Assembly: GCA_016927275.1 (NCBI GenBank) | Contig: JAFGMW010000022.1 | Coordinates: forward strand, 1-34,306 | Reading direction: 5' to 3' | Length of the DNA stretch: 34,306 bases | Source: Pseudomonadota bacterium | GTDB lineage: Bacteria > UBA10199 > 2-02-FULL-44-16 > JAAZCA01 | In this document: piece by piece, positions 1 to 19,866 of the stretch | Layout: the number at the start of each line of letters is the position of its first letter | Position numbering within the stretch: position 1 is the stretch's first letter | Notes under the pieces: model-generated | What the model was told of the DNA's origin: nothing | What the model saw: only the letters and a program-made list of their open reading frames with translations | Databases searched by the model: none | Position numbers and translations under genes: made by a program

Positions 1-1878
1 GTCCACTCCTCGTTCGACTCGCTCCCCTGGGTTTTTCCCTCCGCGTTCCTCGAGTTCCAGGGGCAGGGGATCGAGGTGCTCGGCAACACCTTCTCGCGCA
101 GCCTGGATGTCGCCGGGGAAAAGATCGGGAACTTCGGCCATGTCATCGCCAACCCCGACGCCGTCATGCAGTCCATCAACAGCCTCTCGCACGAGAGCAT
201 CCCGAGCGCGGGCGACCTTCTCCGTTCGTTCCGGGATGCGATGGCGGGAGTGAGCGCAGCCCTCTTCGCCTCGAACATCGTATGGCCCGAGATCCTGAAG
301 TTCTTCAGGCAGGACCGCAGATGGCTGTGGCTCGCGCCAGGCTTTGCGCTCTTCAACCTCGATCTGGCGACAATGCCCGGCTTCGATGGGTGGCACTTTT
401 TGGAACACGCCTACACCTACGGGGCGGCCGCGGTCTTCCTCATGCAGATGCGCAGGGACATGACCCCAGCCCACAAGGAACACCTCAACTACGCCTCCAT
501 GGCGTTCCTCCCGGGCGCGTTCATGCTCTCGGCCGACATCGGATGCTGGCTCGCGCCGGGGCCGAACGATCCAACCTACGCGGAGCGCCTGATCCGCGCA
601 GGCCTGCTGACGGTCGAGTCGTATTTCATGATGAAGATACTCGGCAACGTGAAGTGGCACTGGGACCATCGCGAGACCGCCGCCACGAACGTCCTCACCC
701 TCATGAAGCAGACCTTCAGCGCGAACGCCGCGCTCCCCCTCTCCATGGTCATAGTCAACGCCTTCACCGCGCCGCTCGGAGGCTACATACAGAGGGACAA
801 GACCCTGGACAACGTCGTGCTCATAGCGCTTCAGGGGGTCGCGACGACCGTCTGCATGCTGCCGATCACGCTCGGCATAAGCGGCGTGCTGAAGCAGACC
901 ATACCGATACTGACGAGGGCGAAGGAGGGGCTGGACGACTCGCGCGCCGCCGGCGACGGCTCGATGAAGCGCGCATACCACACGCTGGTCGGCGGCGTGA
1001 GCGCCTTCAACACGACATACGCCCACAACCGCATCTTCCGGTCCGGCTACTGGGACATAATTCCCGCCTTGTTCAGGACGCTCATGGGGTGGGACACCTT
1101 CGCGGGCCAGCTGGCCATGTCGGGCACGAACATCGTCCACGGCAACGGCGTCTCGACGAGGATGTGGCCGGAGCTGTCGGGCACCACATGGTCCCGCCAG
1201 TCGGTGAAAAAGGAGTTCGAGAACGCGACGGACAAGCGGCTGCAGATAGATCAACGGATGGCGAACAAGACCCTGAGTCCGGAGGACGCCCGATGGGAGA
1301 GGGGCATGGTCCACGCGCAGATCAGGACCTTCTTCCAGGAGGCAGCGCAGGTCATGCACCCCGCGCATCTGTTCATGTCCCACGAGGCTCTCACCGACAG
1401 GCTCATCCCCTTCTACTCGTTCACCATGGCTGCCAGGCCCCCCACATTCCCCCAGCTTCCCGACAGACACTTCCTTGCAGACTTCTATCTCATGCTCCAC
1501 GGCGGCCACCCCAACGAGAGGCTCGACCTCGAAGAGTTCATTACGCTTCTGGACTACGTGAAGGCGGACGCATCGGACCCCAGCGCATACGACACGGTCA
1601 GGCCGCTGGTGCAGCTCTTGGCCCTTGCCAGGGACAACATGGACCCGGAATACCGGAAGTTGATAGAGGATTTCTTCGCGGAGAACCCCGAGGTGCCGCT
1701 CATGGTAAACGTTGAACTTGCGGAGCACCCGCCACTGCACGAGAAATACAGGCGCATCGCCAGGAAAAAGGTGCGCGGCAAGGTCAGGATGGAGTTCAAG
1801 GACTACGAGCGCCGCGTGAACGGCCACAACAGGCAGAAGCGTGCCCACGACAAGCTGGAGGGGCTGTTCCTTTTTTAG
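1..1878 (+). CDS. Large multi-pass membrane protein of unknown family, 5' end cut by window edge
   Basis: The frame is open from base 1 to a TAG at 1876-1878, so at least 625 residues are present and the N-terminus lies outside the window. A GTG at 76 could be read as a start, but residues encoded before it already align with the next gene's product, which argues for a partial gene. Several hydrophobic stretches lie in the first half (around WLWLAPGFALF, FLPGAFMLSADIG, LPLSMVIVNAF and VVLIALQGVATTV). The second half is soluble-looking and ends in a basic tail. It shares SADIG, SAFN-x2-Y-x2-NR-x-FR, AGQ-x2-MS-x-TN and HP-x-H-x-FM blocks with the neighbour at 2143, so the two are paralogues. 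I do not recognise the family and assign no function. Confidence 0.8.
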   Translation, partial: VHSSFDSLPWVFPSAFLEFQGQGIEVLGNTFSRSLDVAGEKIGNFGHVIANPDAVMQSINSLSHESIPSAGDLLRSFRDAMAGVSAALFASNIVWPEILKFFRQDRRWLWLAPGFALFNLDLATMPGFDGWHFLEHAYTYGAAAVFLMQMRRDMTPAHKEHLNYASMAFLPGAFMLSADIGCWLAPGPNDPTYAERLIRAGLLTVESYFMMKILGNVKWHWDHRETAATNVLTLMKQTFSANAALPLSMVIVNAFTAPLGGYIQRDKTLDNVVLIALQGVATTVCMLPITLGISGVLKQTIPILTRAKEGLDDSRAAGDGSMKRAYHTLVGGVSAFNTTYAHNRIFRSGYWDIIPALFRTLMGWDTFAGQLAMSGTNIVHGNGVSTRMWPELSGTTWSRQSVKKEFENATDKRLQIDQRMANKTLSPEDARWERGMVHAQIRTFFQEAAQVMHPAHLFMSHEALTDRLIPFYSFTMAARPPTFPQLPDRHFLADFYLMLHGGHPNERLDLEEFITLLDYVKADASDPSAYDTVRPLVQLLALARDNMDPEYRKLIEDFFAENPEVPLMVNVELAEHPPLHEKYRRIARKKVRGKVRMEFKDYERRVNGHNRQKRAHDKLEGLFLF

Positions 1879-1951
1879 TTCCAGCCCCGAATCCAGCAGG
1901 CTGACACCCCCCCGCTGCCCTGTCACGGGCATTCAGAACTACCCATAATCC

Positions 1952-1979
1952 TTGACTTATTCGACGCAATTCGTATAAA
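1952..1979 (+). promoter_or_regulatory. Sigma70-like promoter upstream of the 1091-residue membrane protein gene
   Basis: TTGACT at 1952-1957 and TATAAA at 1974-1979 are separated by 16 bases in an AT-rich part of the 264-base gap between the two paralogous genes. The match is five of six at both boxes. Transcription would begin near 1986 and run into the terminator-like hairpin at 2051 before reaching the next start codon at 2143. Confidence 0.5.
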
Positions 1980-2050
1980 TTAGCGAATATAACGCGTTGC
2001 ATCGCTTCAAGCTTCAAATTTTCTCTTTTGAAACAATAAGTTAAATTCCG

Positions 2051-2082
2051 GCTGCGCGACAGGGCGCAGCGATCTTTTTTTT
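2051..2082 (+). terminator. Rho-independent terminator in the leader of the following gene
   Basis: GCTGCGC at 2051-2057 pairs perfectly with GCGCAGC at 2064-2070 across a six-base loop and is followed by a run of eight T beginning a few bases later. It may end transcripts of the upstream gene. Because it also lies between the promoter at 1952-1979 and the start codon at 2143, it could instead act as an attenuator or as the 3' end of a short RNA. Confidence 0.6.
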
Positions 2083-2142
2083 CTCACTGAGGACGCAACT
2101 TTTTCTCACAACCTGCGATAAGTCTAGCGGAAGGCGGATGCG

Positions 2143-5100
2143 ATGACTAACCTGGTTGCGCAGAGGATTCCGACTTTTTCAAACAGCCTGCTCACCGCCA
2201 CATCGGTGCCGTCGTTGACCATATCCCCGACCGTATGCAACAGCGCGATCTGCCCGCTGCTGCAGAATCAGCGCCCCCCCCTCTCCGCCGGCAACTCCTC
2301 CGATCCCTTCAGGAAATCAAAGGGCGACAATCAGCTCCTTCAGTTCGAGCCCTCCTTTCGCATATCGAGAATCAACGAGAGCCTTGAAAGGGCGCGCGAT
2401 GCGAGGCGCACAGGGGACGTTGATTCAGCGGTCGGCTCCTACAGGCAGGCCCTTGAAGGGCTCAGGCAGCCTTTCGACGAATCCTCAAACGACCCGATCC
2501 ACAGCCTGGTCCCGGAGGGCAACGCGCTTCTGACAGAGGCGCTGATCGGCGCGACCGCGCTGACCAGCGAAGAGATCTTCGGGCTCAAGCCTTTCGCGAG
2601 CGCACAACCGGCAGCTAAAAACATCGAGGTCCTCTCCCGGCACGTGAACGATCTGGAAAAGGCCGATGCGCCCAAGACCGATCTGGCCGCGACAAAGCTC
2701 CTGCTCGCGTTCAACCTGATACAGCACGCGAGTTCCAGAAAGGTCCAGCACGATTCCCTGTTCGGCAAGGCCATCTGGATCGCCGAAGGGGCGATGAGCG
2801 ACGTAGCGCCGGCCATGGACAAGGCGGAAGCGTCCGAGATACATTTTCTCGGAGGCCTGCTCGTCATAGAGGCGCTCGCGCGCAGGCTGGAGCTGGCCAA
2901 TCGAAGCGGCGACATGTCGGAGATCGAGAAATTCTCAGACAGGATCGCCCTCCAGTTCAACAGACTCTACCAGATCCACTTCAGCCCCGCTTCTCCTGCC
3001 GGCCAGAGAGATGAGTTCAGGGAGGCCTACGCCGCCTACGGGGCGTTCTCCGCCGTTCTGAAGTACAAGCTCGGCCTCGGGGCACAGGCCCTCACCCGGG
3101 TCCGCTCCATAGTGTCGCCGAACTCGTTCGAAAACACCAAGGCTGCGAAGCTGCTGAGGAAACACGAATTCTTCGAGGGGTTCTTCGACGGCGCCCGATT
3201 CAAGGATGCGGGCGAAGTCAAAAACAACGCGACCGACGGCGCCTTCCTGCGAAGGCTTCAGGCCGCATTCGCCAACGCCCACACCACGAGCATCGTGAAC
3301 TCCATGATCACCGGAGGAATCGGCATGGCCCTGGGCATAGCGGGCGCAGCAGCAGCCGGCCATCCTGAGTTCGGATGGGCCGCCGGCGGCCTCGGCGCCG
3401 CCATGACGGAGGGCGCCTATCAGCTCCGAAACGGCTGGAACTCGATCGAGGCCCGTGACTCGGCTGCCATCGACACCGGAAGGATCAGCCGCACTCGCAC
3501 AGCATACGACGTGACGCTCTTCATGGCCAAGAGGCTCATGAGCGCGCTGATTTGGACGGTGCCTTCGTCGGCCGTGGCCGCGGGCCCGGAATTCGGAGAG
3601 ACGGTCGTCAACACCCTGGCGAACGTCCCCGGGGCCTACGAGAAGGCGTTCCTCAAGCTCGTGCAGTCCCCGCAGAACCTCTTCCCGAGCCTTTTGAACG
3701 GCGACCCTGCGGAAACCGCCTATCAGATATATACGAAGGCCGCAGGGGTGATCTTCCTGGCGAACCTCCTTTCGGCGAGGGCGAGGAAATGGACGCAGAT
3801 GGCCTCCTTCTTCTTCATCCCCGGCGCTGTGATGTTCTCGGCGGACATAGGCGTCGCTCTCGCGCCCCCCGAGGTGTTCGCCAACCCGATGGACGCCTGG
3901 ACCGACCGCATCGTGCGCGCCACCATCGTCAGCGGCGAGATGCTCGTTATGCTGCTGACCACCGGCCTCTCGCCGCTGAAAAACACCGGCGCCGGCGAGC
4001 TCAGAAAAAGCTTCATGGCCCTTGGCAAGACCCTGATCCCGATAAAGGGCAACACAGACTACAACCTCCCCCTGGCCGCCGCCCTCGTCACCGGCCTCTC
4101 ATCGCCGCTCGGCGCGATGTTCCAGGTCGGCCAGATGCCCGAGAGCTACCCCCTGATCGCGGCGCAGGGCGCCGCCATCACCGCGGGGCTCCTCGGCATC
4201 ACCCTTGGCTTCAGCGGCATCCTCAAGAGGCAGATACCTCTCGGCGCGAACATCAAGAGGGCGATCAACGACGTCCGTCACGCGAGGGCCGACGAGGCGA
4301 GGCGAATCAAGGAGGGGGAAGCAATCGAGGCGAAGACCGGCATGCTCGCCTATCCCCACGAGTTCCTCCGAGGGGGGCTTTCGGCGTTCAACTCCGGCTA
4401 CCTCAGAAACAGGGTGTTCAGGATACTTGGGCCCGACCTGGGCGCGTCGCTCGTCCGGCTAGTCGCGGGAGGGGGCAACTGGGATTGCAACGCCGGCCAG
4501 ACCGGCATGTCCGCAACAAACGCGATCTCGGGGAACCCATACTGGGACAGCGCCTATCCAAGCGCCAGCGGGGCGCAGCCTGAGGAGCAGTCGTTCATCA
4601 GGGCGCTCGACAAGGTCATCGGGGAGCGCAAGGCCCTCATGGCGCAGGCGGCGGGAAAGAACCTCACCGAGAAGGAGCGCGGGGAACTCGACCGAAAGAT
4701 CTCGGATGCGCTGAACCTGTTCAAGGACCACATCAAGAAATCGGGGCAGGTCATACATCCGCTGCACTTCTTCATGCCGTTCAAGCACCCCCTGGACAGG
4801 CTGTGGCCCCTCTACGCCTTCACTAAGCCGGTGATCCCGCCCGACTTCCCGCAGCGCCCGAACCCGTACTTCTTCGGAAGCGTCTACCAGGTCCTGACCG
4901 ACAGGGAAAATCTGGGCATGGACCAGGAAAAATTCGAGGTCATCCTGGAACTGGTGCTCACCAACGTCTCGGACAGCGCCTCATACCACATCCTGAGGCC
5001 CCTGGTGAAGACGCTCCTCATGGCCAAGGAGAGCGAAACCTATGGCGACCGGATCAACTCCTTCTTCAGCGAAAATCCGCACACGCTGATAATGCTGAAC

Positions 5101-5418
5101 ATAAACCCGGACGCCGAGGAGCTCACTCCCCCGCAGAGCCCGTTGAGCAGGGTGGCGCGGTCGGAGGTCCGCGGCGCCATCGCTCAGCCGTTTGAGAAAT
5201 ACGAGGCGAGGGTCCGCCGCTACAGGCGGAACGAGAACTACGGCGAGCCCCACCACCTCTACGGCCTCTTCCAGGCCGAGGTCGGCGGAGAAACGATTGC
5301 TGAAGATCCGACCGCCGCAGCGCCGGAAGCGGAGGCAGCCAAGACGGAGATCCGCGAGGGTGAGCAGAGGCACAATGCCGAAGGTTCGGACAGCATCCCA
5401 CCGCGCGTCAGGTTGTAG
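2143..5418 (+). CDS. 1091-residue membrane protein of unknown family, paralogue of the upstream gene
   Basis: I do not recognise the family. Residues 1-60 are rich in Ser, Thr, Pro and Asn and look disordered. Residues about 77-108 resemble a TPR-like helical pair (SLERARDARRTGD, AVGSYRQAL), and a helical region runs to about 375. A Gly/Ala-rich hydrophobic stretch follows (GGIGMALGIAGAAAAG, near 390-405), then from about 457 a part homologous to the neighbour at 1-1878, with further hydrophobic segments near FFFIPGAVMFSADIG, LAAALVTGLSSPLGAMF and AAITAGLLGITLGFSG. The C-terminal part is soluble-looking, with an Ala/Glu-rich tail. The ATG at 2143 is preceded by a weak GAAGGCGG. The overall layout suggests a membrane-anchored protein with a large N-terminal domain. 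The topology was judged by eye. Confidence 0.85.
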   Translation: MTNLVAQRIPTFSNSLLTATSVPSLTISPTVCNSAICPLLQNQRPPLSAGNSSDPFRKSKGDNQLLQFEPSFRISRINESLERARDARRTGDVDSAVGSYRQALEGLRQPFDESSNDPIHSLVPEGNALLTEALIGATALTSEEIFGLKPFASAQPAAKNIEVLSRHVNDLEKADAPKTDLAATKLLLAFNLIQHASSRKVQHDSLFGKAIWIAEGAMSDVAPAMDKAEASEIHFLGGLLVIEALARRLELANRSGDMSEIEKFSDRIALQFNRLYQIHFSPASPAGQRDEFREAYAAYGAFSAVLKYKLGLGAQALTRVRSIVSPNSFENTKAAKLLRKHEFFEGFFDGARFKDAGEVKNNATDGAFLRRLQAAFANAHTTSIVNSMITGGIGMALGIAGAAAAGHPEFGWAAGGLGAAMTEGAYQLRNGWNSIEARDSAAIDTGRISRTRTAYDVTLFMAKRLMSALIWTVPSSAVAAGPEFGETVVNTLANVPGAYEKAFLKLVQSPQNLFPSLLNGDPAETAYQIYTKAAGVIFLANLLSARARKWTQMASFFFIPGAVMFSADIGVALAPPEVFANPMDAWTDRIVRATIVSGEMLVMLLTTGLSPLKNTGAGELRKSFMALGKTLIPIKGNTDYNLPLAAALVTGLSSPLGAMFQVGQMPESYPLIAAQGAAITAGLLGITLGFSGILKRQIPLGANIKRAINDVRHARADEARRIKEGEAIEAKTGMLAYPHEFLRGGLSAFNSGYLRNRVFRILGPDLGASLVRLVAGGGNWDCNAGQTGMSATNAISGNPYWDSAYPSASGAQPEEQSFIRALDKVIGERKALMAQAAGKNLTEKERGELDRKISDALNLFKDHIKKSGQVIHPLHFFMPFKHPLDRLWPLYAFTKPVIPPDFPQRPNPYFFGSVYQVLTDRENLGMDQEKFEVILELVLTNVSDSASYHILRPLVKTLLMAKESETYGDRINSFFSENPHTLIMLNINPDAEELTPPQSPLSRVARSEVRGAIAQPFEKYEARVRRYRRNENYGEPHHLYGLFQAEVGGETIAEDPTAAAPEAEAAKTEIREGEQRHNAEGSDSIPPRVRL

Positions 5419-5530: not shown

Positions 5531-6886
5531 ATGCCCAATATCCTGTCGTTTCTTAAGGTCGCCCCCCACGCCAAACCGATAGAGGATCCCGCAAAGGTCA
5601 AAAGCCTCTATCGATACTGGCGCTGGCAGACGATCACGTCGCTCGTGATCGGCTATGCGGTCTACTACTTCGTCAGGAAGAACTTCTCGATGGCCATGCC
5701 GTCATTCCTCGACGAGCTGGGATACACAAAGACGGACCTCGGCATAGTCCTCACGCTCTTCTCAATCGTCTACGGCGTCGGCAAGTTCGCGAACGGAGTG
5801 ATCGCTGATCGCGCGAACTCCCGTTACATGCTGGCATTGGGTCTTCTGGCCGCAGCGATAGTCAACATCCTCTTCGGCCTTAGCTCAGGCCTCATCGCAT
5901 TCAGCATCTTCTGGATCCTCAACGGCTGGTTCCAGTCGCTGGGCATGCCCGCCTCGGTGAGGCTTCTGACCCACTGGTACAGCCCGACCGAACTCGGAAC
6001 CAAATGGGGAATACAGAGCACGGCTCATCAGATCGGCGGGGCCGGGATACTCATCTTCGCGGGATGGCTCGTCTCGAACTTCGGCTGGCGATCGGCATTC
6101 TATATCCCGGCATTTATAGCGATAGTGGTGTCATTCCTTCTCATCTGGCGTCTGCGCGACACACCCCAATCCATAGGCCTGCCCCCCGTCGAGGAGTACC
6201 GGGGTGAGGCGCATCTCGCCGATCCGAACGAGGACCAGGCCAAATCGATCAAGGAAATCCTCTTCAAACACGTGCTGAACAACAGGCTCATCTGGATAAT
6301 CGCCATCGCGAATATCTTCGTCTACATCGTGCGCATAGGCATCATGGACTGGGCGCCGACCTTCCTCGTGGAGGCCAGGGGCTCAACGCTGGGAGCTGCG
6401 GGGCTCAAGACCGCGGCATTCGAGCTCGCAGGCATAGGAGGCGCGATCGGCATGGGCTGGGCCTCTGATTTCTTCTTCAAGGGCCGGCGCGGCCCCCTCG
6501 CCACCGTCAGCATGTTCCTGCTCGCAGGCTCGATAGCGCTTCTGTGGCTCATACCGAACAGCAGCCACATTCTGGAGGCGGCGGTCTTGATAGCTGCAGG
6601 CGTGCTCGTCTACGGACCGCAGCTCCTCGTGCCGGTCGCAGCCGCTGATTTCGCATCCAAGAAGGCTGCGGCCACGGCCACCGGGCTCACGGGGGCGTTC
6701 GGCTATATCGGCAGCGCCCTGGCCGGCGTTGGCACCGGTCTGATAGCGGACCGCTGGGGCTGGAACGGCGGATTCATCTTCTTCATAATAGCTTCGATCC
6801 TGGGCGGGTTCTGTTTCATGCTGACATGGAAGCACAGGGCGCCTCAGCTCGATAAATACCACAACAGCAGGAAGAAGAAATCCTAG
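5531..6886 (+). CDS. MFS organophosphate:phosphate antiporter, GlpT/UhpT/UhpC family
   Basis: The 451-residue product is an inner-membrane major facilitator protein of the organophosphate:inorganic-phosphate antiporter family. The N-terminal YRYWRWQ and GYAVYYFVRKNF blocks match the first helix of GlpT and UhpT. The Arg of VRKNF and the Arg of YIVRIGIMDWAP correspond to the two phosphate-binding arginines known in E. coli GlpT (R45 and R269). Twelve hydrophobic segments fit, and the length is that of the family. The start at 5531 has AAGGAG at a good distance. The family imports glycerol-3-phosphate or hexose phosphates, or senses them (UhpC). The substrate cannot be read from sequence, but the next genes handle sugars. 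It is probably co-transcribed with the glycosyltransferase 30 bases downstream. Confidence 0.9.
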   Translation: MPNILSFLKVAPHAKPIEDPAKVKSLYRYWRWQTITSLVIGYAVYYFVRKNFSMAMPSFLDELGYTKTDLGIVLTLFSIVYGVGKFANGVIADRANSRYMLALGLLAAAIVNILFGLSSGLIAFSIFWILNGWFQSLGMPASVRLLTHWYSPTELGTKWGIQSTAHQIGGAGILIFAGWLVSNFGWRSAFYIPAFIAIVVSFLLIWRLRDTPQSIGLPPVEEYRGEAHLADPNEDQAKSIKEILFKHVLNNRLIWIIAIANIFVYIVRIGIMDWAPTFLVEARGSTLGAAGLKTAAFELAGIGGAIGMGWASDFFFKGRRGPLATVSMFLLAGSIALLWLIPNSSHILEAAVLIAAGVLVYGPQLLVPVAAADFASKKAAATATGLTGAFGYIGSALAGVGTGLIADRWGWNGGFIFFIIASILGGFCFMLTWKHRAPQLDKYHNSRKKKS

Positions 6887-6916: not shown

Positions 6917-8314
6917 ATGGACGGCAAAAACCTACAAAGAGAATTCCTGCAGTCGAAGCGCTCCCATATCCTGATGGTCACCAACCACGGGACCCACACG
7001 TGGGAGGTGCGTTCGGGGCTCACCGACACCGGCGGGCAGAACCAGTACGTGCGCTCGCTCTCCGACGCGCTCGTGGCGCTCGGATACAGGGTCACCACCT
7101 ACAACCGCGGCGGCTACCCCGACCCCATGAGCGGCGAGATTCTCACCGGAGCCCGCTACAGGGACTCGCACTCGCGGATCGTCTATCTCGAGGGCGGAGG
7201 TGGGGCCTTCATCCGCAAGGAGGACCTGACCCGAGAGATCCTCTCCGATGAGGTCGAGTTCGCAAAAAGGCTCGCCGACCGGGAGAGGCTCCCGGTCGAC
7301 CTCATCATATCCCACTACTGGGACGGGGCGCTGCTGGCCTGCATCCTGAAGGAGGAGAGCGGCCTCAAGGCGAAGCACATCTGGGTGCCCCATTCGCTGG
7401 GGACGCTCAAGCGCCTCAACTTCATGGACAAGCCGCCCGAGGTGGTGGCCCCTCTCCGGTTCGACGAGCGCATCGCATTCGAGAAAGAGGTCATGAAAGC
7501 GGCCGATGCGGTCGCCTCGACCTCCGGCGACATCTCGAGACACTCCGAGAAGAGCTACGGCCGCAGGCCGGAGCTGTTCCTGCCGCCGTGCATAGACACC
7601 TCGGCGATCCGCCCCCTGGATGAGGGCGCCGACCTGGGCCGCATCTACGAGTTCCTGAAGGAGACGGACCCCGCGACGGGCCGCAAGGCCTCCGGCCGCA
7701 GATGCGTCCTCGAGATGAGCCGCACAGACCGGACCAAGCGCAAGGACATCGTCCTCAAGGCGTTCGCCGAGGCGCGCAGGGACAACCCGGACGCGCTGCT
7801 CCTGCTCAGGATCAACCGGAAGGCGAACGATCTCTTCGCCGAGCTGGACTCCCTCGCCCGCGAGCTCGGGGTGCGCGACGACGTGGTCTATGTGGGCATG
7901 GTGCCGGACGACCTGATGGCGCAGCTCTTCGCGATATCCACGGTCTACCTGTCGCCCTCGGAGATGGAGGGGTTCGGGATGTCGGTCCAGGAGGCAGCCG
8001 CCTGCAGAAAGGCGACGATATCGTCCACCCTCATCCCCTTCGCGGTCGAGTATCTGGCAAAGGACGGCAGAGACGAGATCGTGAAGACGCGCGGGGGCGA
8101 TGTGAAGATCCGCTGGGGCAAGGGGGGCGTGATCGTCCCGGCCGGGGCCGCAGACGGGTTCGCCCACGCGCTGAAGGCGCTGCTGGCGGACGCCGGGCGG
8201 CGCGAATCGATCGCAGCGGCCGCCTACGACATCACCATCCCCTACTTCACGTGGGACAATATGACGCGGATGCTTTTGTCAGGCGTCGGGATGAAAGCCG
8301 CCCGCCCGGACTGA
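6917..8314 (+). CDS. GT4-family glycosyltransferase, sucrose-phosphate-synthase-like
   Basis: The 465-residue protein has the GT-B fold signatures of family GT4. An N-terminal nucleotide-fold strand and loop carries TGGQNQYVRSL (about 38-48), as in sucrose synthase and sucrose-phosphate synthase relatives. The C-terminal half holds a donor-binding R-x4-K (R269, K274) and the E-x7-E motif in EMEGFGMSVQEA (E351 and E359). It has no signal peptide or membrane segment, so it should be cytoplasmic. It probably transfers a sugar from a nucleotide donor to a small acceptor or sugar phosphate; neighbouring GDP-mannose genes make GDP-mannose a possible donor, but that is inference. The start at 6917 has only a weak AAAGG. 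It converges on the guanylyltransferase gene, with 10 bases between the two stops. Confidence 0.85.
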   Translation: MDGKNLQREFLQSKRSHILMVTNHGTHTWEVRSGLTDTGGQNQYVRSLSDALVALGYRVTTYNRGGYPDPMSGEILTGARYRDSHSRIVYLEGGGGAFIRKEDLTREILSDEVEFAKRLADRERLPVDLIISHYWDGALLACILKEESGLKAKHIWVPHSLGTLKRLNFMDKPPEVVAPLRFDERIAFEKEVMKAADAVASTSGDISRHSEKSYGRRPELFLPPCIDTSAIRPLDEGADLGRIYEFLKETDPATGRKASGRRCVLEMSRTDRTKRKDIVLKAFAEARRDNPDALLLLRINRKANDLFAELDSLARELGVRDDVVYVGMVPDDLMAQLFAISTVYLSPSEMEGFGMSVQEAAACRKATISSTLIPFAVEYLAKDGRDEIVKTRGGDVKIRWGKGGVIVPAGAADGFAHALKALLADAGRRESIAAAAYDITIPYFTWDNMTRMLLSGVGMKAARPD

Positions 8315-8324: not shown

Positions 8325-9245
8325 TCACTTTATCTTTTCCTTCAGATAACCCTGGACCTCGAGCGGGAGCGTTATCTTGAATCGAGCGGCCATCTCGGCG
8401 AGGCTCTGCCATGTGCCTATGTCGGACCAGCTCACGGGGAACGGGAACACGGCGACGTTTTTCGCCTTCTCCATCACGCCGTAGTCTATCGATATGCCCT
8501 GAACCTCGTCGAAGAACCTGTTCACCCAGCCCTGATCGGCCCCTCCCCTCGGATCGAGCTTGAGCGTGGAGAGCTGCTCCGCCATCTGCGGCAGGTGCTC
8601 CCTCACCGCGCCGAGCAGGGCGTCGGCCTTCCACACGAACATGCCGCTGTTCCAGAGGTAGTGGCCCGTGGCTATGTAGCGCTCCGCGGTCGGCACGTCA
8701 GGCTTCTCCACGAACTCTTTGACCATGCGGGCCTCAGAGCCTTGGATCGCATCGCCCTCGTGGATATAGCCGTACTCGGGCGAGGGGAAGGTCGGCGGTA
8801 TCCCGAAGGTGACGAGGTGCCTGCCGTCCGCCGCAAAGGCAGCGGCCTTCTCGAACGCCGATATCGCGCCTGCGTAATCGGGTATGTAGTGATCGGCAGG
8901 GGTGAAGACAGTCACCGCATTCGAGTCGCGCCTGTGGATGAGGCTCGAGGCGAGCGCGATCGCGGGGGCGGTGTTCTTCTTCTTCGGTTCGCCGATCACG
9001 TTCTCAGGCGGGATCTCGGGGAGCTGCTCGGCCACGAGCGCCCTGTACCTGTCGTTGGTCGCCACGAAGCACCTGGAGCCGGGCACGAACCCCGAGACCC
9101 GATCGAACGTCTGCTGGATCATGGTCCGCCTGTTGTCGATGACGTTGAGAAACTGCTTGGGCCTCTCGGGCGTGCTGTAGGGCACGAACCGCGTCCCCTC
9201 CCCTCCGGCCAGGATTATCGCGTAGACATTCGGCATGACCCTCAT
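8325..9245 (-). CDS. manC: Mannose-1-phosphate guanylyltransferase (GDP-mannose pyrophosphorylase)
   Basis: The enzyme joins mannose-1-phosphate and GTP into GDP-mannose and pyrophosphate in the cytoplasm. The N-terminal nucleotidyltransferase signature GGEGTRFVPYS with PERPKQFL is intact. TPADHYI (metal-binding Asp), FVEKP and LWNSGMFVW follow in the expected order. The 306-residue length fits the single-domain form, without the C-terminal isomerase domain of long bifunctional ManC/AlgA proteins. The ATG at 9245 is preceded by GGAGGGGAT; a second ATG three codons in has worse spacing. It lies 33 bases after the phosphomannose isomerase gene on the same strand, which should be one transcript. 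The phosphomannomutase step is not encoded in the window. Confidence 0.93.
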   Translation of the reverse strand: MRVMPNVYAIILAGGEGTRFVPYSTPERPKQFLNVIDNRRTMIQQTFDRVSGFVPGSRCFVATNDRYRALVAEQLPEIPPENVIGEPKKKNTAPAIALASSLIHRRDSNAVTVFTPADHYIPDYAGAISAFEKAAAFAADGRHLVTFGIPPTFPSPEYGYIHEGDAIQGSEARMVKEFVEKPDVPTAERYIATGHYLWNSGMFVWKADALLGAVREHLPQMAEQLSTLKLDPRGGADQGWVNRFFDEVQGISIDYGVMEKAKNVAVFPFPVSWSDIGTWQSLAEMAARFKITLPLEVQGYLKEKIK

Positions 9246-9278: not shown

Positions 9279-11033
9279 TTACGATGCTGCCGCTGAGGTC
9301 TCGATCATCACGTTCCGGCCAGACAACCCTCTTATCGCAAAATCTCCCATGGCCGCCGGCACCATGAACGACTGTCCCTTCCTGAATTCGCCCTGGAGCG
9401 TGCTGTCTGATTTTCTGACTACCGACACCGCGCCCTCTATCACAGTGTAGCCCCTGAACACGCCGCCCTCGCCCTCGAACACCTCGCCCCTGGTCATGCG
9501 GAGGCGCTCACCCCTTGCGAACGGCTCGTCGAACAGCCTCTCGGCCATCTGGACGTTGTCGCCTGATGATGCCACGGGCTCCGGCATCCTGCGGAGCGCG
9601 GAGACCGCGGCCGGCCCCCTCGGCCCGTCCCAGATGGTCGCAGCCATGGCCTGGTCCACGTGGAGCTGCCTCGGCCTCCCCATGTCGTCCACCCTGCCGT
9701 AGTCGAAGACGCGGTAGGTGGTCTCCGAGGTCTCCTGAGGCTCCACGAGAAGGACGCCGGCGCCTATGGCGTGTATCGTGCCGGCGGGGATGAAGAACAC
9801 GTCGCCCGCGCAGACAGGAACGAAGTTGAGGAATCGCGTCACGTCGTCCCCTGAATTGAGCGCAGCGGCAAACCGCTCCTTCGTCACGCCCTCCTTGAGC
9901 CCCAGATAGAGGCCTGCGCCCTCCTCCGCATCGACGATGATCCACGCCTCCGTCTTGGAGTGCTCGCCGGGGGCCATGCCCTTGAAGCCGGAACGGGGAT
10001 GCACCTGGACCGAGAGGTTCTTCGCGAGCATCCGCCTGTGAAGGTCCCGGAGTTCAGCCGCCTGCGGGATATCGCCCTTGATCTCCCTCTCGAGCGCGAG
10101 CATCCCCTGGTGGATATCGTCGTAATTTCTGCCGCCGAGTTCCTGAAGGGACGAGGTCGCCCCGACCGCGCCCCTCCACGCGCCGGACTTCGGCATATCA
10201 TCGAGCTCCCCGAGTATCTTCATGAACTCGGGGATGTATTCGGACCAGCTGCCGGAGTTGAGCAGTTTGACGAGAAACGGCATGGAGGTGATCTCGTTCG
10301 ACGGCGCGAGAGGCCCGTAGAGGTTTCTCGAGAACATCGCCGCTAGCTGTGCCACCTCCACGGTGGTCCTCTTCCCCGCGTATTCGACGGCGAAGCTGTT
10401 CGGAAATCTGGGATGACCGGATATCTCCCACGACTCGCCCACGACAAGGCCCTTCGCCCAGATGCGAAGCCCCATCTTCATCTGCGGGATGATGGTGCCC
10501 CCCCAGGGCGTCCTCTCCTCAGGGGTGAAGTTGTCGGGCGAGGGGACGAGCACCCCCCTGGTCATCTCGAAGAGCTTCTTCGCGAGAGGCCTGCCCATGA
10601 GCGAGGCGTAATAGGGCTCTCCCGCGGCGGCCCGGCGCACCATCTCCATCCAGCTGAACCCATCCTCGCCGCCGGTGATCGCGTCCTCGAGCAGGTCGAG
10701 CTCCTTCTCCGGCGTCGCGGTCCTGTCCAGGAGCGCGGGGAATCGCTTTCTCAGCCTGGCGTCGTCGCCCGATCCGCCCCCTGAAGGCGGGGATCCCCTC
10801 CCCCCTCCGGACACGCTGCCGGCGCCCGACCCCCCGCCGAATCGCGCAAAAGCTGAAATGGCGCAGATGGTGCTCGCGGAGAACTCCGACTCTCTGCCAC
10901 AGCGCGCGACCGCTGAGAACGAATCAAACGATGGATCCATGACGCCCACCTTTATGCCATTCAATGATGGCCCAAGCAGTTGGCTCTGGATTGGCGTGTT
11001 GCCGCCTATGGTGAAGTTCATCGTGGAGCGCAT
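9279..11033 (-). CDS. manA: Type I mannose-6-phosphate isomerase with long N-terminal extension and insert
   Basis: The enzyme interconverts fructose-6-phosphate and mannose-6-phosphate using one Zn. Expected ligands are visible: Q343 and H345 in LSVQVHP, E362 in KTEAW, and H421 in AGTIHAIG. The GESWEIS block lies near 199 and the late signature VEPQETSETTYRVFDYGR near 430-447. At 584 residues it is much longer than the usual 310-390. Residues 1 to about 165 have no counterpart in typical enzymes and include a Gly/Ser-rich linker (about 65-90). About 80 residues (roughly 258-338) are inserted between MPFLVKLL and NLSVQVHP, which are nearly adjacent in relatives. The ATG at 11033 has GGGAGGTCAA in front, so the long start is supported. 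It leads the manA-manC pair. Confidence 0.92.
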   Translation of the reverse strand: MRSTMNFTIGGNTPIQSQLLGPSLNGIKVGVMDPSFDSFSAVARCGRESEFSASTICAISAFARFGGGSGAGSVSGGGRGSPPSGGGSGDDARLRKRFPALLDRTATPEKELDLLEDAITGGEDGFSWMEMVRRAAAGEPYYASLMGRPLAKKLFEMTRGVLVPSPDNFTPEERTPWGGTIIPQMKMGLRIWAKGLVVGESWEISGHPRFPNSFAVEYAGKRTTVEVAQLAAMFSRNLYGPLAPSNEITSMPFLVKLLNSGSWSEYIPEFMKILGELDDMPKSGAWRGAVGATSSLQELGGRNYDDIHQGMLALEREIKGDIPQAAELRDLHRRMLAKNLSVQVHPRSGFKGMAPGEHSKTEAWIIVDAEEGAGLYLGLKEGVTKERFAAALNSGDDVTRFLNFVPVCAGDVFFIPAGTIHAIGAGVLLVEPQETSETTYRVFDYGRVDDMGRPRQLHVDQAMAATIWDGPRGPAAVSALRRMPEPVASSGDNVQMAERLFDEPFARGERLRMTRGEVFEGEGGVFRGYTVIEGAVSVVRKSDSTLQGEFRKGQSFMVPAAMGDFAIRGLSGRNVMIETSAAAS

Positions 11034-11207: not shown

Positions 11208-11231
11208 ATGATTCAATGATTTTATGATTCA
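11208..11231. repeat. Three tandem copies of an 8-bp unit
   Basis: ATGATTCA, ATGATTTT and ATGATTCA lie head to tail, followed by a partial GATTC. The array sits just before the inverted repeat at 11240-11272 in the divergent manA/formimidoyltransferase gap. It could be a slippage product or a set of binding sites. Confidence 0.55.
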
Positions 11232-11239
11232 GATTCGAT

Positions 11240-11272
11240 AAAACCCGCCTGTCTTGCCCTTCAGCGGGTTTT
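11240..11272. terminator. 9-bp stem hairpin with A/T flanks before the formimidoyltransferase gene
   Basis: AAAACCCGC at 11240-11248 pairs perfectly with GCGGGTTTT at 11264-11272 across a 15-base loop. A-tract and T-tract arms give it terminator character in both directions, though the T-run is only four bases. It ends 31 bases before the GTG start at 11304, so it may be a leader structure instead of a true terminator. Confidence 0.4.
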
Positions 11273-11303
11273 CACCTATAAGGCTCGGGACTCCGGAGGA
11301 GCG

Positions 11304-12227
11304 GTGAAGCTCATCGAGTGCGTGCCCAATTTCAGCGAGGGCCGGGACAAAGCGAAGATAGAGGCCATCTCCTCGGCCATCAGATCCGTGCAAGAGATCT
11401 CGCTCATGGACGTGGACCCCGGCGAAGGGACAAACCGCACGGTCTACACCTTCGCAGGGCCTCCGGAGGCCTTGCTCGAGGCTGCGTTCAGATCGATCGA
11501 GAAAGGCGTCGAGCTCATCGACATGCGCCTCCAACACGGGGCGCACCCGAGGATCGGGGCATGCGACGTGTGCCCCTTCGTGCCGCTCCTCAACGCTACC
11601 ATGCAGGAGTGCGTCGAGCTCGCGAAGAAGCTGGGCTGGCGCGTGGGCAACGAACTCGGAATACCTGTGTATCTCTACGCAGAGGCGGCGGCGAGGTCTG
11701 AGCGAAAGAGGCTCCCTGACATCCGCAGGGGCGAGTACGAGGGGCTTAAGGAAAAACTGAAAGACCCGAAGTGGAGACCAGATTTCGGGCCCTGCGAGTT
11801 CAACGCGAGATCTGGCGCCACAGCTGTCGGCGCACGCAGGGTACTGGTCGCCTTCAACGTGAACCTGGACACCGACGACGCGGGCATAGCGAAGAGGATC
11901 GCCGCGGAGATCAGGTCGTCCGGCAGCGGTTCCCGCCGCTTCGAGTCGCTCGAGGCGCGCGGCTGGTTCATCCCCGAGTACGGCCGCGCGCAGGTGACCA
12001 CAAACATCCTCGACATCGATGCAGCGCCGCTGGCCGCGGTCTTCGCGGCGTGCAGCGAACTCGCAGCTGAGTTCGGCGCGAGCGTTACCGGGAGCGAGAT
12101 AGTGGGCATGGTCCCTGAACGAGCGCTCGCTGATATCGATCGCCTTGGCCTGAACGATGTGTCTTTGTTCGATCCTGCGCAAAAGATCCTGGAGAGGGCG
12201 CTTGGCATTCCACCCCTTAAGCTGTAA
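11304..12227 (+). CDS. ftcD: Glutamate formimidoyltransferase (single-domain FtcD)
   Basis: The family moves a formimino group between N-formimidoyl-glutamate and tetrahydrofolate, or uses 5-formyl-THF, linking histidine breakdown to one-carbon metabolism. The N-terminal signature CVPNFSEGRD is at residues 6-15. HGAHPRIGACDVCPFVPL near 78-95 carries the conserved catalytic His-Pro-Arg region, and an N-R-SGAT-x-VGAR block follows. The 307-residue length equals the transferase domain alone, without the cyclodeaminase domain of the mammalian fusion. The start is GTG at 11304, preceded by GGAGGA. No histidine-utilisation gene lies nearby, so its local role is unclear. An AT-rich spacer follows the stop. 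Confidence 0.9.
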   Translation: MKLIECVPNFSEGRDKAKIEAISSAIRSVQEISLMDVDPGEGTNRTVYTFAGPPEALLEAAFRSIEKGVELIDMRLQHGAHPRIGACDVCPFVPLLNATMQECVELAKKLGWRVGNELGIPVYLYAEAAARSERKRLPDIRRGEYEGLKEKLKDPKWRPDFGPCEFNARSGATAVGARRVLVAFNVNLDTDDAGIAKRIAAEIRSSGSGSRRFESLEARGWFIPEYGRAQVTTNILDIDAAPLAAVFAACSELAAEFGASVTGSEIVGMVPERALADIDRLGLNDVSLFDPAQKILERALGIPPLKL

Positions 12228-12345
12228 ATTATTGTTTTTTATATATAATTTGACTAGGAGGGGCGGTCTTTTCGTAGCAACTTTTTCGGGATCCTGCCGA
12301 GAACGATGGATGTGGGCCTCTGGACAGGCCCAGGGAGAACGCGCC

Positions 12346-14067
12346 ATGGTTAAGATGACCCGCATACAGCACGACGCGCTGGACCGGATCGAGAAGCTCA
12401 TCGATCGGGGCATACTACCCGAGGAGGTGGCCGAGCAGATCAGGATAGCCAGGAGCGGCGATTACGACAGGAATCTCATATTCAAAGCCTTTGCCAAGAA
12501 ATACAACCGCGGCGACAGGATAGCGGTCAACTGGCTCATGAGGGAGCTCGGGGGCCTGCCTCCCCAGGTAAGGCCTGCGAGCTCCTCTCAAGAGCCGTAT
12601 GTCGTGTACGACGACGACCCAGCCAGACCGATCGAGCACGAAGCTCCAGAGCTCGAACCGAGGTTGTTCCGAAAGAGGCTCGACGAGATGATCTGGGGGC
12701 TCAACAGGCCCCAGGAATACACGCCGCAGAGGATCGTCGACTCCGCGCTGAAAAAGCTCGGCGTCACGAAGGGGATGGACGGATACGAGCATGGCGCGGA
12801 TGCCGCGACGAGGCTCCTCTCCAAGAAGATGGCCTTCGAGATCGTCTCCTCGCTGCGCAGGGGACGGCTGGACCCGCTGCCCATACCGCCGAACCCCACC
12901 TCGCCCGCCTTCGACGGGTTCATGTCGGAGAAGCTGCTCGTGGATGAGCGCATGATAAGGGAGTGGAAGGGCTGGGACGGATGGCCGCGCACCCTCGTCA
13001 ACGTGTTCGCGGTCGTGCTCGGGGACGGCGTATCGCCGTGGCACGCGGCGACCCTGGTGGAGCGGAGGGAGCAGGAGATAACGCTCAAGCGCAGGTGGTA
13101 TCTCGACATCGACGCCTTGGGCGTGAGATCGCAGCTCGGCTCCGCGGAGATAGACGTAACCGGCATCGAGAGCGACAGCGCCGGCGCCATAGGGCGCATG
13201 TACAGGAGAGTCGAGGACGCGGACAGGATACGCAGGGCGAAGGCCGAGTACGCGCGCTTTGACAGCACCGTGCACGCGGACGCGGGATACGACGGCGCGT
13301 CTGTGCGCGACCTCTACAGGGACATGCTCGCCCTGCATCAGGACGACCTTAACCTCGGGGCAAAGTCCTTCCTGCGCCTGCTCATGCCCTTCGTCCTGCC
13401 CATGACGCCGGCGGAGATCGAGAAGGCGATCCACAGGCAGGACGTGCCCGACGAGGTGCGCAGGCTGACGGCTCTGACCGTGCTCTACTGGCACACGCGG
13501 AGCCTGCACGGCCTTGCAGGGTGGCTGTCGAGGATCGTGCGCGACAACAAGACCTGCAGGACCATCAACGCGTTCTGCGCGAACAGGCTCGGGTTCAGCC
13601 CCGGCATGATCGGCCGCGACAGGGCAGCGCCGCCCGCCCTCATGAAAAAACTCGAGCAGATGGCCGATGCGGGGGTGGACCTCGCCCCGCTCATCAACAC
13701 GCTGGCCACCATGTTCGCCGGCTCGGTGCCCGATCGCAAGGCAGCGGAGCTGCTGAAAACGGCCAAGGAGAAGAGGGCCAAGGCGCTTCCGCTCGATCTC
13801 AAGGAGCCGAAGGCTGCGACGACAGCCGGGCGTCGAAAGAGGGCGAAGGACAATGCGGTCGTGCGCGGCAACGGGCCCCGCAGGATGAAGCGCAAGGGGA
13901 CCACGGGGGGCGATCAGCTCGCGCTCGATTTCGGAAAGACACAGGACAAAGGCGCCGCGCATTACATCCTGTCAAAAAGGGCCGCCCCGATCGTGCCGGG
14001 CGCGCCCGCCAAAATGGTTCTCGGCGCGCAGCTCATGCTGCCGGGGATCGCAAAACCCGGCAGATAG
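12346..14067 (+). CDS. Hypothetical protein, 573 residues, basic C-terminus
   Basis: I do not recognise this protein. The ATG at 12346 is chosen because AGGGAGA stands about eight bases before it; an upstream in-frame extension would overlap the previous gene. It has no signal peptide and no convincing membrane helix, so it is probably cytoplasmic. Residues 1-75 are helical and charged (EEVAEQIRIARSGDYD). The middle is mixed alpha-helical with few conserved-looking motifs. Residues about 470-530 are rich in Lys and Arg. Three short hydrophobic motifs occur in that tail: ALPLDL, QLALDF at 524-529 and QLMLPG at 562-567. QLALDF fits the loose consensus for beta-clamp binding peptides. A DNA-associated role is possible but unproven. 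Confidence 0.8.
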   Translation: MVKMTRIQHDALDRIEKLIDRGILPEEVAEQIRIARSGDYDRNLIFKAFAKKYNRGDRIAVNWLMRELGGLPPQVRPASSSQEPYVVYDDDPARPIEHEAPELEPRLFRKRLDEMIWGLNRPQEYTPQRIVDSALKKLGVTKGMDGYEHGADAATRLLSKKMAFEIVSSLRRGRLDPLPIPPNPTSPAFDGFMSEKLLVDERMIREWKGWDGWPRTLVNVFAVVLGDGVSPWHAATLVERREQEITLKRRWYLDIDALGVRSQLGSAEIDVTGIESDSAGAIGRMYRRVEDADRIRRAKAEYARFDSTVHADAGYDGASVRDLYRDMLALHQDDLNLGAKSFLRLLMPFVLPMTPAEIEKAIHRQDVPDEVRRLTALTVLYWHTRSLHGLAGWLSRIVRDNKTCRTINAFCANRLGFSPGMIGRDRAAPPALMKKLEQMADAGVDLAPLINTLATMFAGSVPDRKAAELLKTAKEKRAKALPLDLKEPKAATTAGRRKRAKDNAVVRGNGPRRMKRKGTTGGDQLALDFGKTQDKGAAHYILSKRAAPIVPGAPAKMVLGAQLMLPGIAKPGR

Positions 14068-14162
14068 TGGAATGTCCACCCTCTGTGGCTTGAGGCCCCG
14101 GATTTACCCTCCCAGACATCCAGCAAAACCTCATAAGATAGGCTCAAGCGGACTTTATGTAT

Positions 14163-14191
14163 TTGACATTGACACACAAAGCAAATAGAGT
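14163..14191 (+). promoter_or_regulatory. Candidate sigma70 promoter for the first small exported protein
   Basis: A perfect TTGACA at 14163-14168 is followed after 17 bases by TAGAGT (four of six). A second overlapping TTGACA lies directly after it at 14169-14174. The predicted start near 14198 leaves a leader of about 50 bases before the ATG at 14247, which has GGGAGGTG in front. Confidence 0.42.
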
Positions 14192-14246
14192 GACGCGCAA
14201 TCGGATGAAAAGGCAGAATCAACGCAATAGCCAAGGGAGGTGTGAG

Positions 14247-14729
14247 ATGAGGAGATTGACTGTTGTTGCACTGGCAGCACTGGCAGCACTGGCAATCGCG
14301 GGCACTGCGATCGCAGAGGTGCAGAAGAAACAGGTGATCAAAGCGGAGCCGCAAGCGGTCAAGGCCAAAGTACATATCCCCACCATGACGGCGTATGTGC
14401 AATGCCCGCCCACTGCCCATATCAAGGGCTTTGAAGTCAACCCGGACGGAACGCAGAAAGATAAAGGCTACTGGATTGACCGGGTGTGCCCGCAGGCGCC
14501 GACAGAAACCTCCTGGGGTCCGACCATCAGCTTCTCGACGCCGGTGAATGCCATGTGGAAGTTCGCAGGAAAGCTCACAGACGGTAAAATAAGCATGGCA
14601 AAGGGCGCCTTCACACACACCCAAGTCAACAAGGACAAACCGGACGTGGGACTCAACTTCGTCACGCCGATGCCCAAGGCTGTTAATGAGATATGGAACT
14701 GGAAAGGTTACCAGCCGCCCATTGAATAA
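14247..14729 (+). CDS. Small exported protein with signal peptide, paralogue of 16005-16580
   Basis: The ATG at 14247 has AAGGGAGGTG in front and opens a classical signal peptide: MRR, then a Leu/Ala-rich core made from a 9-base DNA repeat, ending near IAGTAIAE. The mature part is about 138 residues with two cysteines (YVQCPP and DRVCPQ) that could form a disulfide. The product aligns end to end with the small protein encoded at 16005: a VQ/K-rich N-terminus, FEV/FEI, GY-x5-CP-x2-P, an aromatic block and a final IE. It is probably periplasmic or secreted. I do not recognise the family. The gene is a self-contained unit with its own promoter-like site and terminator. Confidence 0.82.
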   Translation: MRRLTVVALAALAALAIAGTAIAEVQKKQVIKAEPQAVKAKVHIPTMTAYVQCPPTAHIKGFEVNPDGTQKDKGYWIDRVCPQAPTETSWGPTISFSTPVNAMWKFAGKLTDGKISMAKGAFTHTQVNKDKPDVGLNFVTPMPKAVNEIWNWKGYQPPIE

Positions 14730-14753
14730 GCATTGTCACATGCTGTGAGATCC

Positions 14754-14784
14754 AAAAAACCCCCGGTTTCCCGGGGGTTTTTTT
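14754..14784 (+). terminator. Strong rho-independent terminator after the first small exported protein
   Basis: CCCCCGG at 14760-14766 pairs with CCGGGGG at 14771-14777 around TTTC. Six A precede and seven T follow, giving up to 13 continuous pairs with flanks. It is nearly identical to the terminator at 16597-16627 behind the paralogous gene. Confidence 0.9.
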
Positions 14785-15793
14785 GTGCCCTGAAAAACCG
14801 CGCACCTTTTCCAAAAATTCGCCGATAATATCTGCAGGACACAGGGACTTCACCAACGGGGGGTGGACCATCGAGACAAAGATCTTCAGCTGCAAACCCG
14901 CGCTCAACAACGCCCCGGAGAAGACCCCATTCTGCGAAGACCTCGCCGTGGCCTTCCATGCAGAGATGAAGGCCAAGGGCTACGAGTGCCGCATCGAGAG
15001 GTACGACGACTACATCGAGGACACCTCGACCGAGCAGCTGAGGTGCGAGACCTTCTACTCGGTCACCTGCCGCGAGGGCCCCGAGCTCTTCCGAAAGATG
15101 ATGCTCGCCAGCGAGTTCCTCTACTATCTTGAGAATATCGAGTTCAACAACGAGTCGGACGGCACCTGCACCCTGTCGGACCCGTCCGGGCGCGAGCCGT
15201 CCAAGGACGACATCAATGCCTGCGAGGAGCTGAGCACCTGGAACGCCACGATCTGGATCGAGAAGTACATAAGGGACAACGAGCTTGAGAAAAGGCAAAA
15301 AGATAGGCTGCTTACGGCGATCGTGAAGGCGATAGACATAACCATCGAGAGCGATCCTTCCCGGCTGTGGTCCATGAACCGCAACGGAGTGATGGTCAGC
15401 AGGGCCTTCGATATCCTGAAACGCATAGGCAGCGAAGGCGACGGCATGACCGTCCCCATATTGATGAAGGCCATCAGGGCGAAGATATACGAGTACGAGG
15501 CCATCGTGGCCCTCAACGAGATCGCGCCGTACTCGAGCGAGCTGGAAGAGGCCCGCAATATCCTCAGGCTGTCCGTGAAGAGATACGTGCGCGGGACCAT
15601 GGACCCTGAGAGGGCCGGCAAACTGCACGACCTGAGGATCAACTACTACGGCGCCATAAGCGTGATAGCCCCGGGCTCCAATGAGCAGCGCAAGGCCTGG
15701 AGGAACATCTGCGAGGGGTGGGACAGGTATCCCGACCAGCCCTGGGCCCGGGGATACCTCGACAAGTTCCGTGAGTTCTGCGGCCAGCGATAG
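14783..15793 (+). CDS. Hypothetical protein, apparently missing its 5' end
   Basis: The frame opens at a TTG that lies inside the T-run of the preceding terminator, which is not a believable start. No ATG occurs in frame for about the first 58 codons (the first is in EMKAKG), while the reading frame stays coding-like from about 14860. The frame includes a cysteine-rich front (FSCKP, FCEDL, YECRI, LRCET, VTCRE) and a C-terminal helical-repeat-like half. This fits a once-exported protein whose signal peptide and start were replaced when the small-gene-plus-terminator unit came to lie in front. It could be a pseudogene, or be translated from GTG or ATG near 14948-14966. I do not recognise the family. 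The stop is TAG at 15791. Confidence 0.6.
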   Translation: MCPEKPRTFSKNSPIISAGHRDFTNGGWTIETKIFSCKPALNNAPEKTPFCEDLAVAFHAEMKAKGYECRIERYDDYIEDTSTEQLRCETFYSVTCREGPELFRKMMLASEFLYYLENIEFNNESDGTCTLSDPSGREPSKDDINACEELSTWNATIWIEKYIRDNELEKRQKDRLLTAIVKAIDITIESDPSRLWSMNRNGVMVSRAFDILKRIGSEGDGMTVPILMKAIRAKIYEYEAIVALNEIAPYSSELEEARNILRLSVKRYVRGTMDPERAGKLHDLRINYYGAISVIAPGSNEQRKAWRNICEGWDRYPDQPWARGYLDKFREFCGQR

Positions 15794-16004
15794 AAATAAT
15801 CAAGCCAATCAGCCCTTCGACTTCGTCAAAATATTGACATTATCCGACATATCTTCAATTTGATAAGTTCACGATTTAAAAATACCGTTGAAATAACAAC
15901 GAATTTAGGTTGATTTTTTATATCAAGGCATGGCATAAATATTACTGTTATAAGACGCAGGGTCTTTATGATTTATAATTACTGCTAAATAAAGGAGGTC
16001 GCCG
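15794..16004 (+). promoter_or_regulatory. AT-rich leader of the second small exported protein
   Basis: This 211-base gap is much more AT-rich than its surroundings. It contains a perfect TTGACA at 15834-15839 without a well-spaced -10, TTGATT at 15910-15915 with ATAAAT about 19 bases on, and a perfect TATAAT at 15974-15979 without a good -35. A strong AAAGGAGG binding site stands before the ATG at 16005. A promoter is likely here, but which boxes are used cannot be decided. Confidence 0.4.
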
Positions 16005-16580: not shown

Positions 16581-16596
16581 CATCGTCTCTTGTCAC

Positions 16597-16627: not shown

Positions 16628-16695
16628 GTGCCTTTGGAACAGGCCCTGATCTTGGACGGCCACTTCAATTCAAATGCCGCATGATCTTTCGACAC

Positions 16696-16713: not shown

Positions 16714-16786
<73 letters not shown>

Positions 16787-18855: not shown

Positions 18856-19866
<1,011 letters not shown>

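Follow-up and report, generated by a model that had tools for sequence, protein, structure and literature searches.

A fast-diverging family of giant helical proteins linked to organophosphate antiporter and sugar genes in one bacterial phylum

In this study we describe two giant genes that stand in tandem in the window, the stretch of 34,306 bp that we analysed, which is the complete contig C22 of a 1.81-Mb, 119-contig genome (G000) that is 96% complete. As judged from alignment, their products, P0001 and P0002, are genuine diverged paralogs. They belong to what is almost certainly an unrecognised family, which by profile search is restricted to one bacterial phylum, and a functional tie of these giants to sugar-phosphate metabolism is likely. 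The explanation that we favour for the locus as a whole, with a probability of roughly 0.4, is that the two genes encode paralogs of an undescribed, fast-diverging giant family that serves sugar-phosphate metabolism as a membrane-associated scaffold or accessory subunit.

A first-pass annotation of the window had placed two large open reading frames side by side on the same strand, and both are present, at positions 1-1878 and 2143-5418 of the forward strand. The second encodes P0002, a full-length copy of 1091 amino acids that was examined by ORF calling, blastp, alignment, hydropathy and an AlphaFold model. The first comprises 625 codons encoding the C-terminal ~60% of a subfamily-I protein, and is open at its 5' end, the contig edge being reached without a start codon. 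Coding sequence and homology to the family both begin at the first codon of P0001, the profile match running from model position 445 to 1007 (model length 1008; E 5e-228), and the N-terminus of the protein must therefore lie beyond the contig end. As the contig ends here, the stretch cannot be extended to the left in search of further copies. Truncation of P0001 by the contig start accounts for the ‘extra’ N-terminal domain that had been ascribed to the second copy, which is thus an assembly artefact; an N-terminal part is present in every full-length relative of P0002. An orphan N-terminal family fragment at the end of C111, a 4.1-kb contig of the same genome, could be the missing N-terminus of P0001; the two do not overlap, and ~200 residues would be absent between them.

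The similarity of the two products holds in a proper alignment: by blastp they share 32% identity (167/525) and 49% positives over 525 residues (E 1e-70), a level that agrees with the earlier description of the copies as diverged. All of the order-conserved blocks listed for the pair fall within this alignment, and the underlying residues are among those invariant in an alignment of 10 members. The 264-bp gap between the genes contains, by consensus scan only, a terminator-like hairpin with a T-run (2051-2070, forward strand) that may end the first transcript, together with promoter-like matches at 1920-1981, which hints that the window copies may be transcribed separately.

The assertion that no known family carries these motifs has withstood searches of sequence profiles, the PDB and Foldseek, none of which gave a confident match to a characterised family. 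For P0001 and P0002 no Pfam-A or NCBIfam model scored above its curated cut-off (the best, TPR_7, reached 13.3 bits against 27.9), and all 10 subfamily-I members gave scattered weak matches only (best E 0.006). Profile matches to PDB sequences were not significant (best E 0.06-0.5), neither PHROGs nor PADLOC contained a match at E 0.01 to a phage or defence protein, and a plasmid search and the literature on UBA10199, the presumed GTDB phylum, yielded nothing on the giants. Foldseek, run with a low-confidence full model, returned no significant fold match, the best (E 0.024) being to generic helical solenoids. Identities rejected as chance were omptin (14.2 bits against a cut-off of 415), Prp19 and NPV_P10 (weak, sub-threshold family profiles) and katanin or GID8 (weak PDB matches). 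Degenerate patterns built from P0002 alone found no relative in 84,980 species genomes; patterns from a 5-row alignment recovered from the same genomes only JAUSII010000129.1 and JACQOX010000118.1, family-bearing MAG contigs of G036 and G007 that are labelled Deltaproteobacteria.

The profile search for relatives that had been proposed at the outset did identify further members, both in the same genome and in other genomes of the phylum. G000 contains at least 5 further copies or fragments, including a second tandem pair of 1066 and 1248 amino acids on C94, a single giant of 1065 amino acids on C72 and a diverged giant of ~1030 amino acids on C54. Subfamily I is completed by relatives in G003, G004, G007 and G036 that are 26-34% identical to P0002. 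Subfamily II consists of four proteins (from C54, G001, G002 and contig C19 of G003), is homologous to subfamily I over ~800 columns (profile-profile E 9.5e-39) and is split from it in the tree with full support. A further G003 protein of 1257 amino acids is recovered by the joint profile (E 8e-59) and carries the C-terminal domain twice. Self-blast gave no significant support for an internal duplication of a PGAxMLSADIG unit, which visual inspection of P0001, P0003 and P0007 had suggested. The profile found subfamilies I and II in 7 of 46 genomes of one phylum (single class), comprising all four genomes of the same taxonomic family and 1/1, 1/4 and 1/6 of those in three other families, and found no giant in ~340 genomes outside the phylum.

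The window is not the only place with a tandem pair: C94 carries one, and so does G007, there with a GalT-like gene between the giants. Single copies are found at C72, on C26 of G003 (one subfamily-I copy) and in G004 and G036, and pairing is therefore not obligatory. The nearest relative of P0001 by tree path and identity (40%) is the G036 protein, and P0002 groups weakly with the second C94 giant, C94b (86/87); a single ancestral pair may have given rise to those at C22 and C94. On the partners-or-ALTERNATIVES question, the tree does not show the window tandem copies as sisters.

The genes that follow P0002 point to sugar phosphates. The first, 112 bp downstream in the same direction, encodes an organophosphate:phosphate antiporter of the GlpT/UhpC/PgtP type (5531-6886, forward strand; MFS_1 E 4e-57). 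Its product scores best with the UhpC model (420 bits) and reaches 404 bits with that of PgtP, both under their cut-offs, while its 404 bits against TIGR00881 are just under the cut-off of 407.75. Its alignment to GlpT (PDB 1pw4; E 4e-93) preserves the Arg, His and Arg that are phosphate-site residues of GlpT, and on sequence grounds the protein is clearly related to the organophosphate antiporters. A GT4 glycosyltransferase follows after 30 bp (6917-8314, forward strand; PF00534 E 5e-20); its nearest solved structure is that of the sucrose-phosphate synthase Tll1590 (PDB 6kih, E 7e-16). The reverse strand carries a mannose-1-phosphate guanylyltransferase-like (ManC/GMP) gene convergent with the operon (8325-9245; PF00483 E 1e-39), whose product scores 239 bits with TIGR01479, under the equivalog cut-off of 373. 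Also on the reverse strand, at 9279-11033, is the gene for a protein of 584 amino acids with a C-terminal part like ManA, mannose-6-phosphate isomerase (TIGR00218 E 6e-16 over residues 360-572).

Comparable arrangements recur in other genomes of the phylum. The window order is giant, MFS, GT4 (gaps of 112 and 30 bp). In G036, GalT-like, giant, GT4 and MFS genes share one orientation and are spaced by 3, -1 and -4 bp, and G007 has giant, GalT-like, giant, GT4 and MFS, separated by 57, 57, 37 and 19 bp. In G004 the order is giant, GT4, ManC (on the other strand) and MFS, adjoining a gene for a 1672-residue ManA-GT-ManC fusion in which the relative of the window ManA-like protein is joined to GT4 and ManC. 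The antiporter also adjoins giants at C72 and in G003. The MFS proteins of G004, G007 and G036 are 70-74% identical to that of the window and the GT4s beside their giants 53-66% identical to its GT4, compared with 26-34% for the giants themselves. When antiporter genes were counted via TIGR00881 across the 46 genomes of the phylum, 28 were found in 17 genomes; all five subfamily-I genomes carry one, against 12 of the 41 others (Fisher p 0.0045).

The constancy of this neighbour, the commonest beside the giants, raises the possibility that a giant is the membrane partner or sensor of the antiporter, much as UhpB is for UhpC, with the MFS protein as receptor and the giant transmitting the signal. 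The best score of the MFS protein being with the UhpC receptor model, albeit under the cut-off, is consistent with such a role, and TPR-like regions of the kind predicted in the giants often mediate protein contacts. However, the giants have no kinase, response-regulator or output domain (UhpB-type histidine-kinase domains were sought, and no kinase family was found in any giant), and subfamily II persists in G001 and G002, which have no antiporter. We consider this reading quite unlikely.

Subfamily II is instead found beside GT4, maltokinase-like (model score under the cut-off), GH13 and sugar-symporter-type (SSF) genes, with a HAD hydrolase gene near one copy, and so keeps a sugar context even where the antiporter is missing. 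Two loci in G000 depart from this context: the C94 pair is adjoined by genes for an EamA transporter and a NosD/PKD protein, with no sugar gene adjoining, and the C54 giant adjoins a Na:solute symporter gene close to dnaA and yidC. These copies, along with the multi-copy and lineage-restricted nature of the giants, would suit a protein with a structural role, in an internal compartment or in the cell envelope, and only a loose link to sugar metabolism. Repeated linkage, in many genomes, to sugar genes and to the same antiporter ortholog group argues against such a protein, which we regard as improbable.

A third group of very large proteins extends the association. Where a genome lacks subfamily I, its antiporter gene usually adjoins a different very large ORF, which encodes one of the mutually homologous proteins of 1,000-1,500 amino acids that we call group III. 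This group was first met by looking beside antiporters, which favours linkage, and was then searched for genome-wide; it is present in 14 of 290 genomes searched, all within this phylum, and four of the 14 (G008, G010, G013 and G038) have no antiporter match. Its neighbours include ManA-like genes (G006 and G042, both related to the ManA-like gene of the window) and UDPGP and GT4 genes (G007). Profile comparison indicates that group III is probably homologous to subfamilies I and II. In the first region, which spans the end of the helical repeat and a Gly-rich hairpin, the profiles align with a score of 54 (E 9e-5, probability 60%), against 35.6 for a reversed alignment and 27.1 for the best of 60 local shuffles. 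The C-terminal domains align independently (24 against at most 13.8 in shuffles), and a probe built from the GWDT block selects its GYDT counterpart in group III (21-24, with shuffles reaching no more than 18.7). All three matches follow the same linear order and each exceeds its shuffled controls; as each is modest alone, the homology is only probable. Taken together, this superfamily is present in at least 19 of the 46 genomes of the phylum. In G045, G028 and G014 the antiporters have large ORFs next to them, but these matched neither the family nor the group III profiles and were left uncounted. Some 17 of the 28 antiporter genes have a subfamily I, subfamily II or group III gene no more than 3 kb away, against ~0.3 expected by a rough estimate for 2-Mb genomes, and superfamily and antiporter tend to be present together (13, 6, 4, 23; Fisher p 0.0003, an optimistic value that ignores the kinship of the genomes).

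The speed at which the giants diverge, at 26-40% identity against about 60-70% for the neighbouring antiporters, would also be expected of large host- or prey-directed proteins of an attached or intracellular lifestyle, encoded beside nutrient-scavenging genes. Intracellular bacteria are also among the known carriers of hexose-phosphate exchangers, and the giants have a Gly-rich hydrophobic hairpin and a weak sequence match (E 0.2), probably by chance, to a chlamydial inclusion-membrane protein. Such weak matches are, however, expected of any helical protein; moreover, translational overlaps tie the giants to metabolic genes, and no secretion-system genes were noticed in the stretches examined, which were not searched systematically. 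A host- or prey-directed role is accordingly the least probable of those considered here, and very unlikely.

The giants are ~940-1250 amino acids long and almost all-helical. In P0002 a variable N-terminus is followed by a TPR-like helical region (residues ~70-350), a moderately hydrophobic Gly/Ala-rich core (~352-700), a conserved NRxxR...LGWDT...W block (~749-815) and a helical C-terminal domain (~860-1045). The TPR-like pair recorded earlier in P0002 falls where helical pairs are predicted with moderate confidence, an AlphaFold model of the G036 protein showing a series of paired, TPR-like helices at residues ~57-310 (pLDDT ~72); its Pfam counterpart is weak, being a single sub-threshold TPR_7 match at residues 88-112 of P0002 (E 0.097). 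The best part of the C-terminal domain was modelled at pLDDT ~75-88. Mean pLDDT was 55 for the complete protein and 42 when the core was modelled alone, so there is no confident fold, and the models are too weak to carry more, as only five sequences qualified for them.

The description of the products as membrane proteins is plausible for subfamily I, where some six conserved segments make membrane association likely on hydropathy grounds. The hydrophobicity of these segments is only moderate (mean Kyte-Doolittle 1.2-1.8), below that of the adjacent MFS transporter, which reaches 2.3, and hydrophobic segments are nearly absent in group III; for both reasons the membrane assignment may be wrong. 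The most conserved block of the giants, FxxxYxxNRxxR...D...R..LGWDT...N...WPE.GGT.W, lies between the core and the C-terminal domain, and residues invariant in the 10-member alignment (P0002 numbering) include F749, Y753, N756, R757, R760, D765, R772, G776, N798, H875 and D885. Of these the charged and histidine residues R757, R760, D765, R772, H875 and D885 could bind phosphate groups. Together with the conserved hydrophobic segments and the adjoining sugar-nucleotide and GT4 genes, they allow a reading in which the giant would act in its own right as an enzyme or translocator embedded in the membrane (a glycan polymerase, a flippase or a GT-C-like transferase) that uses GT4, GDP-mannose or UDP-sugar products for a cell-surface polymer. 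Yet Pfam and NCBIfam profiles gave no match of any giant to the GT-C, Wzx or Wzy families, the hydrophobicity is low for a polytopic enzyme, and organophosphate antiporters are unusual in polysaccharide export loci. Moreover, R760, R772 and F974 are the sole residues shared by all aligned members of subfamilies I and II, with no Asp or Glu among them, and some subfamily II members have Asn in place of the SADIG-block Asp, so that no conserved catalytic acid is visible. An enzyme or translocator of this kind is thus unlikely.

Our preferred reading, of a membrane-associated scaffold or accessory subunit, would operate as follows. The Gly/Ala-rich core would probably lie in or on the inner membrane with the TPR-like part facing the cytoplasm, and the giant would bring the organophosphate:phosphate antiporter together with soluble sugar enzymes (GT4 and GalT-, ManC- and ManA-like proteins). 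The antiporter would exchange hexose phosphates, and the soluble enzymes would make a phosphorylated disaccharide or glycan. We infer the membrane insertion, the complex, the scaffold role and the product alike, and the scaffold mechanism itself is tentative, at distinctly less than even odds; gene neighbourhood is association, not mechanism. A broader proposal, that the superfamily is the central component of an undescribed membrane-associated machine coupling hexose-phosphate exchange to nucleotide-sugar or glycoside synthesis, is more speculative still, and we hold it to be doubtful.

What is new here is the protein family, which Pfam, NCBIfam and the PDB lack, and not a demonstrated mechanism. 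Lineage-specific families of this sort are common in candidate phyla, but gene linkage sets the giants above ordinary examples: they are kept at up to about seven copies or fragments per genome and are tied to a well-understood transporter. This tie provides a handle on sugar-phosphate handling in an uncultivated phylum, and the conserved neighbour makes the function of the giants testable.

Comparison with known systems shows partial likenesses. The N-terminal ~280 residues of the giants resemble TPR proteins in their predicted paired helices and their sub-threshold TPR_7 match, but the conserved two-thirds of the giants is not TPR, and the one repeat is far under the curated cut-off. The subfamily II loci, with their maltokinase-like, GH13 and GT4 genes, recall GlgE and trehalose synthase-maltokinase alpha-glucan loci, pathways in which we know of no giant protein of such kind. 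In the window, the combination of an SPS-like GT4 with ManC- and ManA-like genes is reminiscent of sucrose-phosphate synthase and mannosylfructose-phosphate synthase loci and would fit GDP-mannose and fructose-6-phosphate chemistry; no sugar-phosphate phosphatase was seen in the window operon, and those pathways differ in having no giant helical protein. Finally, the MFS protein beside the giant, as a clear relative of the organophosphate antiporters, likens the locus to the UhpB-UhpC and GlpT systems, from which it is set apart by a giant that is unlike UhpB or any kinase and that is accompanied by GT4 and sugar-nucleotide enzymes.

Inspected by eye, the unit Y-x2-Y-x2-A...FLPGAxMLSADIG is seemingly doubled in the truncated first giant of the window (residues 70-185) and in the further giants P0003 and P0007, and it seems to occur once in the second window giant, P0002; self-BLAST gave no significant support for the duplication.

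A lone N-terminal piece of the family, cut by the contig end, lies elsewhere in the same genome (contig C111, L023:1-1178), and might supply the N-terminal part that the first window gene lacks, with a gap of about 200 residues between the two. Upstream of this fragment, on the opposite strand, is the gene for the 23S rRNA methyltransferase RlmN (L023:2172-3194). In three genomes RlmN has a member of the family or of group III nearby (also L049:4206-5249 and L077:4336-5388), reflecting either an ancestral neighbourhood or coincidence.

In genome G004 (contig C30) a single in-frame TAG (L025:16868-16876) divides a group III giant, and the same frame runs on to 17614 with sequence that is still homologous. 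Either the read is wrong at this point, or the gene is interrupted, or the stop codon is read through. Adjoining the giant operon of G004 is a 1672-residue fusion of ManA-like, GT4 and ManC-like proteins (L025:316-5334); G004 also has separate ManC and GT4 genes.

Between the sugar genes of the window and its ribosomal/rpoA/adk cluster (approximately 18856-23427) are several ORFs of 190-515 residues (11229-18000), none with a Pfam match. Large unannotated ORFs flank the antiporter gene in genomes G045 (L106:9079-11454) and G028 (L112:3602-5800); they match none of the three giant groups, and are possibly yet more diverged giant relatives.
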